64,000 nt of DNA from Marivita lacus (GTDB lineage Bacteria > Pseudomonadota > Alphaproteobacteria > Rhodobacterales > Rhodobacteraceae). The stretch lies in assembly GCF_014637725.1 (NCBI RefSeq), contig NZ_BMFC01000001.1, positions 250,632 to 314,631 on the forward strand, written 5' to 3'. This document shows, one piece after another, positions 14,886-19,752 of the stretch (its first letter is position 1; the number at the start of each line of letters is the position of its first letter). The position numbers and the translations under genes were made by a program. Under the pieces are notes generated by a model. It was not told the origin of the DNA, did not search any database, and saw only the letters and a program-made list of their open reading frames with translations.

Positions 14886-15970
14886 AGCAGATGCCCGGAC
14901 TTGCGGGCCTTGGTGGCCAGATAGCCGCTGTTGTGCGGGTTCTCGCCAACCTTCAGGGGCACGCGTTCTGCAACGGTGATGCCGTGCTTTTCCATCATCG
15001 TGATCTTTGCAGGGTTGTTGGTCATCAGCCGCACCGCGCCAAAGCCAAGCTTGCGCAACAATTCGGCCCCGATGCGGAAATCGCGTTCGTCATCCTCGAA
15101 CCCGAGGCGGTGATTGGCCTCAACCGTGTCAAAGCCCTGATCCTGCAACGCATAGGCGCGCATCTTGTTGGCCAGACCGATGCCGCGCCCTTCCTGGTTG
15201 AGATAGAGCAGAACGCCTTCGCCCGAAGCCCCCATCGCTGCCAAGGCACCGTTCAGTTGCGGCCCGCAATCGCATTTCAGGCTGCCCAGCAGGTCCCCGG
15301 TGAAACAGGCGGAATGCAGGCGCGCCAGCACTGGCTTGGCGCGATCCGGGCGTCCGATCTCGATGGCGTAATGCTCTTCCGATCCGTCTTCGGGGCGAAA
15401 CACGTGCAACCGCGCGTTCTGCGCCGCACGCAGCGGCACCCGTGCCGACACGACGCTGTCAAAGACCACCGATGCCCCGAGCCTCGGCGCGGCAGCAACG
15501 GGATCGATCAGGGTCAGCGCATGGTCCGCCGCGAACGCCCTCACGTCGGTCAGAGGTGCCACGATCACCGCCGGCAACAAACGGGCCGATTTGGCAAGGG
15601 TGACCGCCAGACGGTGCAGCGTCGGATCGCCTTCGCGGCGCGTGACCAGCGGCCCCTTCATCGGATGCGACAGATCATCGGCGGGGTCCGCGACCGCCTG
15701 TACCCAGCGCAGCGTCGCATCCTTGGGCAGCGCCACCCGTGCGACGTCACCATCATAAGCCCGCGCCTTGAGCGTTGCCGCCCTGCGTCCGGTCAGCACC
15801 AGATCGGCCTCGGTGCCCAAAGCGATCACATCCGCCAGTCGTTCAGCACCAAGAGATTCGACAGCCAGCACCAGAAGACCGTGCACACCGCCCAGCACGA
15901 TCGGCACGCCCATGCGCAGATCAGACCGCGCACGGGCCAGCAGATCGGTGATGTCAGGCGCAAGTGTCAT
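14882..15970 (-). CDS. ribA: GTP cyclohydrolase II with degenerate N-terminal DHBP-synthase-like domain
   Basis: First committed enzyme of riboflavin synthesis (GTP to a diaminopyrimidine). The 362 residues start at ATG 15970; a TTG three codons upstream is also open. The C-terminal half (about 200-362) is complete GCH II, with zinc ligands in HSACFTGDLLGSLKCDCG, catalytic LNQEGRGIGL and the TNNPAK motif. The N-terminal 165 residues look like a worn RibB domain: the stretch LHRLAVTLAKSARLLPAVIV fits RibB's helix after its HTE motif, but the acidic DDEDRE-type cluster and RPGHTE are missing. It is first in a four-gene operon. Confidence 0.92.
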   Translation of the reverse strand: MTLAPDITDLLARARSDLRMGVPIVLGGVHGLLVLAVESLGAERLADVIALGTEADLVLTGRRAATLKARAYDGDVARVALPKDATLRWVQAVADPADDLSHPMKGPLVTRREGDPTLHRLAVTLAKSARLLPAVIVAPLTDVRAFAADHALTLIDPVAAAPRLGASVVFDSVVSARVPLRAAQNARLHVFRPEDGSEEHYAIEIGRPDRAKPVLARLHSACFTGDLLGSLKCDCGPQLNGALAAMGASGEGVLLYLNQEGRGIGLANKMRAYALQDQGFDTVEANHRLGFEDDERDFRIGAELLRKLGFGAVRLMTNNPAKITMMEKHGITVAERVPLKVGENPHNSGYLATKARKSGHLL

Positions 15971-16129
15971 GAAATCCAAGGCTTCCCAGAGGGGCCGTTT
16001 GCAACAAAAGACCCAGATTTATGTAACAATTGGCCCCTGCATACACGAGGCCGTGAAACACTTGCAGCAATTCTTGTCCACGTGCAACGTCTTGACCATC
16101 TGTCTTGAAACCGACGGAGAGACAACACG

Positions 16130-16816
16130 ATGGCACAGCTCAAGAATATCCTTCTGGTCGACGACGACGACGATCTGCGCGAGGCGTTGGCCGAGCAGCT
16201 TGTGATGACCGAAGACTTCGAAGTGTTCGAAGCCGATTGCGGCACCGCCGCCATGGGCCGCATCAAGGAACAGCTTTACGACCTCGTCATCCTTGATGTC
16301 GGCCTTCCCGATACCGATGGCCGCGAGCTGTGCCGCCTGATGCGCAAGCAGGGTGTCAAGGCTCCGATCCTCATGCTGACCGGCCACGATTCGGACGCGG
16401 ACACGATCCTGGGCCTGGATGCCGGGGCCAATGATTACGTGACCAAGCCCTTCAAGTTCCCGGTGTTGCTGGCCCGCATCCGCGCCCAGTTGCGCCAGCA
16501 CGAGCAATCCGAAGACGCGGTGTTCACGCTTGGGCCGTACACGTTCAAGCCTTCGATGAAGCTGTTGATGACCGAAGACGACAAGAAAATCCGTCTGACC
16601 GAAAAAGAGACCAACATCCTCAAGTTCCTCTATCGCTCCACCGATGGTGTGGTGGCCCGCGACACGCTCCTGCACGAGGTCTGGGGTTACAATGCCGGTG
16701 TCACGACCCACACGCTGGAAACCCACATCTACCGCCTGAGACAGAAAATTGAACCAGATCCCTCCAACGCGCGTTTGCTGGTCACAGAGTCAGGTGGCTA
16801 TCGCCTCGTGTCATGA
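16130..16816 (+). CDS. OmpR-family response regulator (orphan)
   Basis: DNA-binding response regulator of 228 residues. The receiver domain has the acidic pocket DDDDD (11-15), phosphoacceptor D56 (VILDVGLPD), T84 and K106. The C-terminal winged helix runs from about residue 130 with the typical LTEKETNILKFLY, ARDTLLHEVWGY and HTLETHIYRLRQKIE. GGAG lies 9 bp before the ATG. No histidine kinase gene is next to it. The ribA-regulator intergenic region (159 bp) must hold both promoters. Essential orphan OmpR-type regulators of envelope genes (CenR) exist in this family; I cannot confirm identity with them. Confidence 0.92.
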   Translation: MAQLKNILLVDDDDDLREALAEQLVMTEDFEVFEADCGTAAMGRIKEQLYDLVILDVGLPDTDGRELCRLMRKQGVKAPILMLTGHDSDADTILGLDAGANDYVTKPFKFPVLLARIRAQLRQHEQSEDAVFTLGPYTFKPSMKLLMTEDDKKIRLTEKETNILKFLYRSTDGVVARDTLLHEVWGYNAGVTTHTLETHIYRLRQKIEPDPSNARLLVTESGGYRLVS

Positions 16817-16830
16817 GACCTTGGTCTATT

Positions 16831-16844
16831 TTGATCCAGATCAA
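16831..16844 (+). promoter_or_regulatory. FNR/FnrL-type box
   Basis: TTGATCCAGATCAA is a perfect match to the FNR consensus TTGAT-N4-ATCAA. It begins 15 bp after the response-regulator stop codon. The box centre (16837.5) plus 41.5 predicts a start near 16879, with TTATCT at 16867-16872 in the expected -10 position. The only thing downstream on this strand before a strong terminator is the candidate RNA; the next gene is convergent. Confidence 0.72.
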
Positions 16845-16877
16845 AGAAGCATGGGATGCACATCTTTTATCTGGAGC

Positions 16878-16962
16878 CTGACAGTTCCCGTCGCATATGC
16901 GGGTTATCATATGCACCTCCCTGTTGGACCTGGCCCCGGATTTGATCCGGGGTCTTTTTTTT
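16878..16962 (+). ncRNA. Candidate FNR-controlled small RNA (about 85 nt)
   Basis: Predicted transcript from the FNR-box promoter to the terminator. It would contain a 7-bp hairpin GCATATG / CATATGC (16893-16899 and 16908-16914, 8-nt loop), then a single-stranded stretch ACCTCCCTG (16915-16923) complementary to Shine-Dalgarno sequences, then the terminator stem with eight U. This is the standard build of a trans-acting, Hfq-type sRNA. The 5' end is inferred from box geometry only. Alternatively the terminator merely ends the regulator transcript. Confidence 0.5.
16934..16962 (+). terminator. Strong Rho-independent terminator
   Basis: CCCCGGAT (16934-16941), loop TTG, ATCCGGGG (16945-16952), then TC and eight T. 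This is a textbook intrinsic terminator on the plus strand. It ends transcription from the response regulator and/or the FNR-box promoter just before the convergent CIA30 gene. Confidence 0.9.
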
Positions 16963-16988
16963 GCGGAGGCTCGGCGTCTGCCGTTGCC

Positions 16989-17528
16989 TCAATAGAGCGT
17001 GATCCGGCCCACCGTCACATCCGCCTCGTAATCCGCGCCATAGGCGACGATGGCAAGGCTGTTCACCTGTGACGGGTCGAAGGATTGCGGCATCCCGTCG
17101 TGGGACGCCATGAAGTCCCGGAACGGCAGCTTAACGGTCCGCCAGCCCTCGGCGGCAACGAAAGACGCCCGGTAGGAATACCAGACGCGTGACAGGTTGG
17201 GTGTCTTGAGAAAGACGAAATAGGTCTCTTCATTGCCGCGCACCTGCAATTCCAGCCCCTGTGCGGAACTTGGCCACGGATCGGAGAACCTGCGCCTGAC
17301 CTGGATGAAGCCGCCATTGTTGTCGGTGCTCACGGTCCCCATCAGTCGGATTTGCGCATCGGCTCCGGCCCCGTTGATCTCGGCCCGGCCTGACGACACC
17401 CCGCCCATCACGCGGTCCGCGACATAATCCCATCGCGTCCCGGCATCACCGGAAAAGTCGTCAAAAATCACGTCCGCCATCGCATGCCCCGCCAGTGTTG
17501 TCGCAAAGATCAGTGTCATCATCCGCAT
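16989..17528 (-). CDS. CIA30-family secreted protein
   Basis: A 179-residue protein of the CIA30 family, named for a mitochondrial complex I assembly factor, with a carbohydrate-binding-like beta fold. The N-terminus is a signal peptide (TLIFATTLAGHAMA|DVIFDD), so the bacterial protein is exported and is unlikely to assemble complex I. Motifs are DRVMGGVSSG, STDNNGGFIQVRRRF and the late WRTVKLPFRDF. ATG 17528 is used; ATG codons two and three codons inside are equally possible. It is separated from pnp upstream by the pnp terminator, so it probably has its own promoter. Confidence 0.82.
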   Translation of the reverse strand: MRMMTLIFATTLAGHAMADVIFDDFSGDAGTRWDYVADRVMGGVSSGRAEINGAGADAQIRLMGTVSTDNNGGFIQVRRRFSDPWPSSAQGLELQVRGNEETYFVFLKTPNLSRVWYSYRASFVAAEGWRTVKLPFRDFMASHDGMPQSFDPSQVNSLAIVAYGADYEADVTVGRITLY

Positions 17529-17555
17529 GGCCGGAACCTAGCACAAAGCCGCAAC

Positions 17556-17586
17556 GAAAAAAGGCGCCCCGGTCGGGACGCCTTTC
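17556..17586 (-). terminator. Rho-independent terminator of pnp
   Basis: On the minus strand AAGGCGTCCC, loop GACC, then GGGGCGCCTT followed by a run of T (plus-strand A-run 17557-17562). One mismatch lies in a 10-bp stem. It stands 22 bp after the pnp stop codon. Confidence 0.85.
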
Positions 17587-17607
17587 AAACGTAACCTGAT
17601 CAGCCGA

Positions 17608-19752
17608 TCATTCGGCGTCTTCGGTCTTTTTTTCCTGCTCGACTTCTTCGCCGGTTTCCTGATCGACCATCTTCATCGCAAGGCGAACCTTGCCACGGTC
17701 GTCAAAGCCCAGAAGCTTCACATAGACTTCCTGACCTTCCTTGAGAACATCCGACGGATGGTTCAGGCGGCGGTTCTCGATCTGGGACACGTGCACCAGA
17801 CCATCGCGCTTGCCGAAGAAGTTCACGAAGGCGCCGAAATCGACAATCTTCACGACCTTGCCCTTGTAGACATTGCCTTCCTCCGGCTCTGCCACGATCG
17901 AGTAGATCATGTCATAGGCCGTCTTGATGGCTTCGCCGTTCGGGGACGCGATCTTGATGATGCCGTCATCGTTGATGTCGACCTTGGCGCCGGAAACCTC
18001 GACGATCTCGCGGATGACCTTGCCGCCCGACCCGATCACTTCACGGATCTTGTCGGTCGGGATCTGCATGGTCTCGATGCGCGGCGCGTGAACGCTGAAT
18101 TCCGCGGCACCCGTGAGGGCCTTGGACATTTCGCCGAGGATATGCAGACGGCCTTCCCTGGCTTGCGCAAGGGCCTTCTTCATGATCTCGGGCGTGATGC
18201 CCGCCACCTTGATGTCCATCTGGAGCGACGTGATACCGTTCTCGGTACCGGCCACCTTGAAGTCCATGTCGCCAAGGTGGTCTTCGTCACCCAGGATATC
18301 GGTCAGAACCGCATAGGATCCATCCTCTTCGAGGATGAGGCCCATTGCGACACCGGCCACCGCGGATTTGAGCGGAACGCCCGCATCCATCATCGACAGG
18401 GAGCCACCGCAGACCGACGCCATCGAGGACGAGCCGTTGGATTCCGTGATCTCGGACACCACACGCACGGTATACGGGAAATCCGTAGTCGCAGGCAGAA
18501 CCGCCTGAAGCGCGCGCCATGCGAGTTTGCCGTGACCGATTTCGCGACGTCCCGGAGGGCCCACGCGACCGGCTTCACCAACCGAATAGGGCGGGAAGTT
18601 GTAATGCAGCAGGAAGTTCGACCGGTGATTGCCGTGCAGCGCGTCGATGATCTGCTCATCGTCGCCGGTGCCCAGCGTGGTCACCACGAGCCCTTGCGTT
18701 TCACCTCGGGTGAACAGGGCAGACCCGTGCGTCCTCGGCAGCAGGCCGGTTTCACACACGATGTCGCGCACTTTATCAAGTGCACGACCGTCGATCCGCT
18801 TGCCGGTTTTCACGACATCGCCGCGCAGCACGGAGGCTTCGAGCTTTTTCAACGCCGACCCGAGGTTCGCATCTTCGCGCTGCTCTTCGTTCAGCGCCTG
18901 GACGATCTCTTCCTTGGCCTTGGACACGGCGCTGGTGCGCTCCTGCTTGTCCGCGATTGCATAGGCGGCACGGATCTTGTCCTCGCCATGCTTTTTCACA
19001 TCGGCATAGAGGATCGAATAATCCGGCGGCTGGAAATCGAACGGCTCTTTCGCGGCGTCTTCGGCCAGGTCGATGATCAGGTCGATCACCGGCTGGATCT
19101 GCTCGTGCGCAAAGGTTACGGCACCCAGCATCTCGTCCTCGGTCAGCTCGTAAGCTTCCGATTCCACCATCATCACGGCGTCCTTGGTGCCCGCGACAAC
19201 CAGATCGAGCCGCTGCTCGGGGTTGTTGCGCAGCTGGTCCATATCCTCGACTTCGGGGTTGAGGATGTATTCGCCATCGACATAACCGACGCGGCAACCG
19301 GCAATCGGGCCCATGAACGGCGCGCCGGAAATGGTCAGCGCGGCGGAGGCGGCGATCATCGCCACGATATCCGGGTCATTGACCAGATCGTGGCTCAGCA
19401 CGGTACACATGACCAGCACTTCGTTCTTGAAGCCCGGCACGAAAAGCGGACGGATCGGACGGTCGATCAGGCGCGCGGTCAGCGTTTCCTTTTCGGAAGG
19501 ACGCGCCTCGCGCTTGAAGAAGCCACCCGGCACCTTGCCGGCAGCATAGTATTTTTCCTGGTAGTGGACGGTCAGCGGAAAGAAATCCTGACCGGGTTTC
19601 GGCTGCTTGGCGAACGTCACGTTGGCCATGACCGAGGTCTCACCGAGGGTGGCAATCACGCTGCCATCGGCCTGACGGGCAACCTTGCCCGTTTCCAGCG
19701 TGAGCGTTTCCTCGCCCCACTGCATTGTTTTCGTCGTAATGTTGAACATCAT
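17608..19752 (-). CDS. pnp: Polynucleotide phosphorylase
   Basis: 3'-5' phosphorolytic exoribonuclease and RNA polymerase, core of the degradosome; 714 residues, full length. Two RNase PH domains are separated by an alpha-helical domain; the second carries the active-site region [22 protein letters not shown] domain [15 protein letters not shown] and S1 domain [17 protein letters not shown] follow, then an acidic tail. Two ATG codons are adjacent: 19752 is 4 bp after AGGA, 19749 is 7 bp after and is the more likely start. It follows rpsO as in most bacteria. The ribosome-binding site lies in an inverted repeat (19755-19887) that suggests leader control. Confidence 0.97.

Follow-up and report, generated by a model that had tools for sequence, protein, structure and literature searches.

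What does an FNR box do when it follows a response regulator gene and faces no protein gene on its own strand? The question arises in a 64,000-nucleotide stretch of the Marivita lacus genome (the window; contig NZ_BMFC01000001.1), where a preliminary description proposed a candidate FNR-controlled small RNA. The perfect FNR box TTGATCCAGATCAA is indeed present at 16831–16844, and the next genes recognised downstream both lie on the minus strand. The box does follow the response regulator gene, at a distance of 14 nt past the stop codon and not the 15 bp given earlier.

The sRNA itself is real and is not new: it is SorX. A covariance-model match to SorX (RF02784) covers 16886–16960 on the plus strand with 71.6 bits (cut-off 46.6, E = 1.5e-15), extends over model positions 1–73 of 73 in the Rfam scan and is the only family above its Rfam cut-off in the window. 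The match lies downstream of an OmpR-type regulator gene whose stop codon ends at 16816. What had been missed is the known origin of this sRNA, which is derived from the 3′UTR of an OmpR-type mRNA. The locus is made up of the following parts:

16130–16816, plus strand: OmpR-type response regulator gene (Response_reg and Trans_reg_C domains), in the place of RSP_0847, the gene whose 3′UTR yields SorX in R. sphaeroides
16831–16844, plus strand: FNR box TTGATCCAGATCAA, exact match, conserved in genus and family
16868–16873, plus strand: −10-like element TATCTG, its TA beginning at offset 24 past the box
16880, plus strand: approximate +1 predicted from the box/TA spacing for an FNR class II promoter
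16886–16960, plus strand: SorX sRNA, RF02784, all 73 model positions
16887–16890, plus strand: proposed pseudoknot stem 1, 5′ strand CCCG
16893–16899, plus strand: stem 2, 5′ strand GCATATG (the hairpin of the preliminary description)
16900–16903, plus strand: proposed pseudoknot stem 1, 3′ strand CGGG, inside the hairpin loop
16908–16914, plus strand: stem 2, 3′ strand CATATGC
16915–16929, plus strand: core ACCTCCCTGTTGGAC with the anti-Shine-Dalgarno CCUCC, outside stem 2 and the terminator
16932–16962, plus strand: intrinsic terminator, stem 16932–16954 followed by a T run
16989–17528, minus strand: CIA30-domain gene, the next gene recognised downstream
17608–19752, minus strand: polynucleotide phosphorylase gene, downstream of the CIA30-domain gene

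The 7-bp hairpin (16893–16899 with 16908–16914), the ACCTCCCTG segment at 16915–16923, outside stem 2 and the terminator, and the strong terminator had all been described correctly. The terminator combines 10 pairs, of which 7 are G-C, with eight T; it is probably common to the regulator mRNA and SorX. Three terminator-like sites are found in 15500–18500 against 2.2 in shuffles, a scan that by itself is no evidence. RNA 16879–16962 folds with −30 kcal/mol (z = −2.3), a value equalled by 5 of 200 shuffles. The anti-Shine-Dalgarno core is that of SorX; CCTCCCTGTTGGA is identical in all 14 aligned sequences.

The M. lacus genome has four further SorX-like matches, all below the Rfam cut-off: L185 to L188, with 45.8, 45.1, 28.2 and 26.3 bits, at C3:233262–233334, C3:435651–435714, C4:181133–181186 and C2:459053–459124, all on the minus strand. 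L185 and L186 contain the CCTCCCTGTTGGA core and have no strict FNR box within 130 nt; in L187 and L188 the exact core is absent.

Within the window, TTGATCCAGATCAA is the only exact TTGAT-N4-ATCAA site; dinucleotide shuffles yield a mean of 0.03, with one site in 3 of 100 shuffles. When one mismatch is allowed, the window contains two FNR-box sites against 1.14 expected, and the M. lacus genome as a whole has 10 exact sites against one for the reversed pattern. At FNR class II promoters, the box is centred at −41.5, with the −10 hexamer about 23 nt past the box and +1 at 35. This spacing is present in the window, where TA at 16868 (offset 24) leads to a predicted +1 near 16880; the start near 16879 proposed earlier fits this conserved −10 position. 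Two results count against an FNR promoter: the −10 element TATCTG is weak, and a generic sigma-70 scan of 15500–18500 found no promoter.

To what extent is the box conserved? We surveyed 295 Rhodobacteraceae genomes, one per genus. SorX is found in 282 of them at E 0.001 or better and above the cut-off in 232, and the pattern of box and SorX core with 50–80 nt in between occurs in 46 of the 295, the reversed pattern in none. Detailed counts refer to 141 genera, one genome each, with an Rfam-hit locus and the C-terminal motif of the regulator upstream; these represent the better-scoring SorX places and not all 295. Left out were 8 of 188 loci without the exact core and 13 of 179 distinct core hits without the regulator motif, two of which had a box. 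G121 and G317 are outside the 141-genus count, having been obtained through the box pattern only (G317 also has no regulator motif), and the other 16 genomes of the window's genus were counted apart.

A strict box lies 55–85 nt before the core in 39 of the 141 genera, and a relaxed box in 11 more. Within the window's genus the strict box is present in 16 of 17 genomes, the exception (G012) having a single-mismatch box. A second, named set comprises the best 80 loci by regulator protein only, chosen blind to the box. Here the SorX core is found within 320 nt in 52 loci. The box is strict in 16 of these 52, and the number rises to 22 when relaxed boxes are counted too, compared to 0.025 and 0.155 loci in shuffles and none for the reversed pattern; the strict-box records include Ruegeria, Shimia, Tateyamaria and Roseovarius.

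In 37 of the 39 box loci, TA begins at offset 23 (27 loci) or 24 (10 loci) past the box, against a background of 9%; the next commonest offsets are 6 (9 loci) and 34 (8 loci). In the named set, TA occupies the same positions after 14 of the 16 strict boxes and 5 of the 6 relaxed ones. In the first set, where relaxed boxes were searched for as far as 95 nt from the core, it does so after 9 of 12, and two of the misses have TA at 22. The standard deviation of the box-to-TA offset is 1.2 (38 loci, TA sought between 19 and 30), and that of the TA-to-SorX distance is 4.0, similar to the 3.9 of the box-to-core gap. Since the offset of TA from the box is nearly constant and its distance to SorX variable, the box and the −10 shift as one unit. 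This joint movement is the strongest result of our analysis.

It also bears on the idea that the palindrome is no DNA box but serves the regulator mRNA as a hairpin or a signal for processing. As RNA, TTGATCCAGATCAA can pair into a hairpin of 5 bp, and it follows the regulator gene and precedes the terminator. A constant spacing from a −10-like TA, however, is characteristic of a promoter. Moreover, 23 of the 39 boxes read TTGAC-N4-ATCAA, which breaks the fifth pair (C-A) and keeps the outer half-site bases. We therefore rejected this idea, which we regard as very improbable.

We favor a different explanation, to which we assign a probability of roughly 0.75, namely that the locus is SorX with its own FNR-activated class II promoter. 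At low oxygen, an FNR-type regulator, most likely FnrL, would bind 16831–16844 and recruit RNA polymerase to the −10 at 16868. The RNA would start near 16880, giving a SorX of about 81 nt that is independent of the upstream OmpR-type gene; the same SorX would also be cut from the 3′UTR of that gene, as published for R. sphaeroides. We infer both the transcription and its FnrL dependence in M. lacus from the sequence, that is, from the conserved box and its fixed spacing to TA. What is new is the promoter architecture, a known sRNA with a conserved and probably functional FNR class II promoter.

Not all SorX loci have such a box. A strict box at class II distance is absent in 102 of the 141 genera, and 91 have no relaxed box either, which counts against the FNR promoter; in 28 of these 102 genera the stop-to-core distance is 60 nt or less. 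Among the box-less loci, some (e.g., L119, L124, L235, L248 and L257) have a common TTGnTGCC upstream of SorX. The motif occurs in 6 of 63 and 5 of 27 loci, compared to 0.47 and 0.26 in shuffles, and is possibly another promoter or regulator site. In 4 of these 6 and 4 of these 5 loci, TA stands at position 21 when counting begins with the first base of the motif. L114, L142 and L162 have a perfect FNR box that runs over the stop codon of the regulator gene and directly adjoins the 5′ end of SorX (36–37 nt to the core). This is too near for class II activation, and the box may be a relic that has shifted or a site for a repressor. The SorX core occurs a second time, 120–650 nt downstream of the first copy, in L108, L120, L121, L129, L133, L134, L159, L164 and L173; in L159, L164 and L173, the box sits at the copy farther from the regulator.

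SorX is best described in R. sphaeroides. According to the sections of the literature that we consulted, it exists there as a 75-nt mature and a 116-nt precursor form from the 3′UTR of the OmpR-type RSP_0847, with RNase E involved (PMC6238624), RNase E and another nuclease cutting it from the mRNA. The RNA, formerly named RSs2461 (PMC5036791), is RpoHI/RpoHII-dependent, Hfq binding has been published for it, and it represses potA; reviews use it to illustrate how an sRNA can be cut from the 3′ end of an mRNA. The two SorX loci share the full-length covariance match, the place after an OmpR-type regulator gene and the core ACCUCCCUGUUGGA, but whereas the R. sphaeroides RNA is described as 3′UTR-derived, M. 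lacus has a perfect conserved FNR box with class II spacing.

We took R. sphaeroides genome G091 as strain 2.4.1, its SorX and fnrL coordinates being equal to the published ones. It contains a degenerate box, TTGCGTGAGATCAA, at 2,598,148–2,598,161 with TATAAA at offset 23, which is the only site with two or fewer mismatches between −450 and +150 of the core. Its left half, TTGCG, is also that of the hemN site bound by FnrL (PMC2908626). In FnrL ChIP-seq under anoxygenic photosynthesis, a site was assigned to the putative promoter region of RSs2461, i.e., SorX (Imam et al., PMC4263372); it is one of 13 outside upstream regions of annotated genes, and according to that paper, the effect of FnrL on RSs2461 could not be established. 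In the sections consulted, this FnrL regulon study differs from ours in that family-wide conservation and class II spacing are not reported, and beyond it we found no report of FnrL control of SorX in the literature searched; papers that name both FnrL and SorX draw no connection between the two in the sections consulted. The table of the 2010 FnrL ChIP-chip study gives 27 peaks and 10 further predicted sites, none of them near 2.598 Mb (PMC2908626). The mapped pre-SorX 5′ end at 2,598,182 is 14 nt upstream of the predicted FNR start (around 2,598,196), which also counts against an FNR promoter, and the authors take both the pre-SorX and SorX ends as processing products (PMC6238624). Published TIER-Seq work on R. 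sphaeroides was carried out under microaerobic conditions. The FNR control claimed in the preliminary description is well supported by the conserved box, the fixed TA spacing and the ChIP-seq site at the R. sphaeroides locus, which is missing from the ChIP-chip list.

The same data allow us to weigh the view that SorX is only 3′UTR-derived, cut by RNase E and another nuclease from the OmpR-type mRNA, the box being a relic or unimportant. Such an origin agrees with the published precursor and mature forms, the absence of a ChIP-chip peak, the regulator motif upstream of 166 of 179 distinct core hits, and the many box-less genera, some with scant promoter room after the gene. A relic, however, would not retain TA at 23–24 nt in 37 of 39 genera with differing box-to-SorX distance. 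The 5′ ends are also informative. In 23 of the 39 box loci, the distance from the box to the first SorX C is 36–37 nt, and in these the predicted +1 coincides with the Rfam-modelled SorX 5′ end. Where the two meet, the end reads A[TA]CCC in 20 of 23 loci and GTTCCC in none, against 57 and 40 of the other 118 genera (Fisher p = 0.0005 for A[TA], relatedness ignored). GTTCCC could be an RNase E site, and its presence in 8 of the 16 loci whose box lies farther away, among them that of the window, is again in line with processing. On balance we consider processing as the sole source unlikely.

A dual origin, with SorX made by mRNA processing in oxidative stress and by its own transcription at low oxygen, is most likely. 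Since the window belongs to the longer-spacing group with GTTCCC, primary and trimmed forms are both plausible here, and processing is likelier in the 28 box-less genera, where a stop-to-core distance of up to 60 nt would hardly accommodate such a promoter. The 5′ GACAG (16880–16884) of the primary transcript predicted for the window can pair with CUGUU of the core (16921–16925). This pairing would be lost in the trimmed form, and the two forms may therefore differ in seed access.

Which regulator would use the promoter? The M. lacus genome encodes an FnrL-like protein, L271, with cysteines at positions 21, 24, 32, 35, 120 and 121; such cysteines hold the FNR cluster. A strict box with the perfect FNR consensus is found at the upstream end of fnrL, facing a gene that we take, by eye, to be hemN-like, and other strict boxes are near genes that, again by eye, presumably resemble ccoN, coxB and norC. 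We discarded the presence of FnrL as a predictor of the box, since an FnrL-like protein is too common (259 of 295 genomes at E 1e-40 or better). The box cannot separate FnrL from Dnr-type paralogs, and the sensor could be Dnr-like: seemingly three such proteins (L269, L270 and L273, assigned by eye) are present in the genome, and mixed boxes with a TTGCG left half occur in some genera. The promoter would then be real but driven by a nitric oxide regulator of the Dnr/NnrR type and not by the oxygen regulator FnrL, an explanation that overlaps with an FNR promoter and differs in the regulator alone. It is improbable given that the box in the window has the perfect FNR consensus, like that upstream of fnrL, and that an FnrL ChIP-seq site has been reported at the R. 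sphaeroides locus, where the only site near the core that resembles a box is a mixed one.

The 5′ part of SorX would fold as a hairpin, leaving ACCUCCCUGUUGGAC free for pairing with ribosome-binding sites. This hairpin, which is the Rfam structure of SorX (stem 2), probably also resembles an H-type pseudoknot. Most loops open with CGGG or GGGG, and at most loci CCCG or CCCC precedes stem 2 by 1–2 nt. Stem 2 is not parsable in 2 of 141 genera; stem 1 is found in 138 of the remaining 139, with at least four Watson–Crick pairs in 127, counts that are generous as stem 1 was sought. No nucleotide separates stem 2 from the 3′ strand of stem 1 in 130 of 138 genera, and the last loop has 4 nt in 107 of 138. 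In a fixed-window test, an exact four-base complement is present in 121 of 139 genera, whereas in 2000 shuffles of the partners the number averages 69.8 and never exceeds 88. Loop CGGG is accompanied by CCCG in 84 of 85 cases, and loop GGGG occurs without CCCG in 41 of 43.

Pairs were counted in gap-free subsets of 62 and 36 of the 111 loci with a stem of at least 7 bp and an 8-nt loop, the remaining 13 having another stem 1 spacing. Stem 1 is paired in 100% (53 distinct rows) and 99.2% (33 distinct rows) of cases; three of its four pairs are invariant, and the fourth shows only GC and UG types, with one row unpaired. For stem 2, 7 of 7 and 6 of 7 pairs vary on both strands. In the larger set, double-change pairs are not above shuffles (8 against 7.5), and the other four of five measures are. 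We set aside independent origins of the stem 1 switch: the minimum of 13 changes is unreliable given the low resolution of the regulator tree, in which 2 of 138 inner branches are starred, and only one independent pair is found on starred branches.

Mutually exclusive alternative hairpins fit the pairing data too, but the fixed junction favors the pseudoknot. Approximate energies are also better for the pseudoknot in 138 of 138 genera, although this estimate is biased, the stems having been picked by fit. Infernal models drop pseudoknots, and its absence from the Rfam match thus says nothing on Rfam's view; no paper naming both SorX and a pseudoknot was found in the literature searched. If true, a pseudoknot conserved at the 5′ end would be an unusual way of capping and stabilising a short sRNA.

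The preliminary description had also suggested target prediction with the core seed and repression of aerobic messages. The prediction failed to reveal a target conserved across genera in the 29 genomes read, and repression of aerobic genes is a guess. For four PotA-like ATPase genes, each read with several start codons, three GTG candidates of L324 were matched by only 1–4 of 200 shuffles; pairing with SorX is unremarkable for the other L324 starts and the other three genes. The pattern CARGGAGG-N3-10-ATG occurs 38 times forward and 40 times reverse in the M. lacus genome against 4 and 5 for the reversed pattern, sites that we take for plain Shine–Dalgarno sequences. The best real gene among 30 loci opened is L310/L332 (G000:C2:108960, minus strand), which has CCAACAGGGAGG before its ATG, with 12 nt complementary to the SorX core. 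Its product is presumably a UPF0173-like hydrolase. We dropped it as a target, a complement of at least 10 nt being present in 2 of 29 genomes (its own included; 10 nt in G065) and of at most 8 nt in the other 27. Likewise, pdhA was dropped with 0 of 29 genomes.

SorX would work like FnrS of E. coli in being an sRNA beside an FNR box that is made at low oxygen. FnrS, however, belongs to another family, which has no match above its Rfam cut-off in the window, and repression of aerobic genes by SorX is only putative. PcrZ of R. sphaeroides is also described, in the sections consulted, as an sRNA regulated by FnrL among others, but it is a distinct RNA that targets photosynthesis genes. SorY (RF02651) has the CCUCCCUGUUGGAC core in common with SorX and scores 31.1 bits in the window, well short of its cut-off (111); in R. 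sphaeroides, SorY is reported to have its own promoter (PMC6238624).

Our results also allow a tentative picture, for which we see a shade less than an even chance, in which SorX in much of the Rhodobacteraceae is mainly a stand-alone, FnrL-driven low-oxygen sRNA that starts at the known mature 5′ end. The 3′UTR-derived oxidative-stress form of R. sphaeroides would then be one state of a dual-origin RNA, with one pseudoknot-capped molecule serving low oxygen (primary) and reactive-oxygen stress (processed) and preparing cells for reoxygenation. A conserved FNR promoter whose +1 falls on this 5′ end or slightly upstream of it would mean that one sRNA arises both from processing and from its own promoter, under opposite oxygen conditions, and would also show lineages shifting between the two. 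Finally, it would give a reason for the FnrL ChIP-seq site at RSs2461, and it predicts a box, a −10 and a start in R. sphaeroides that are testable in this model organism.
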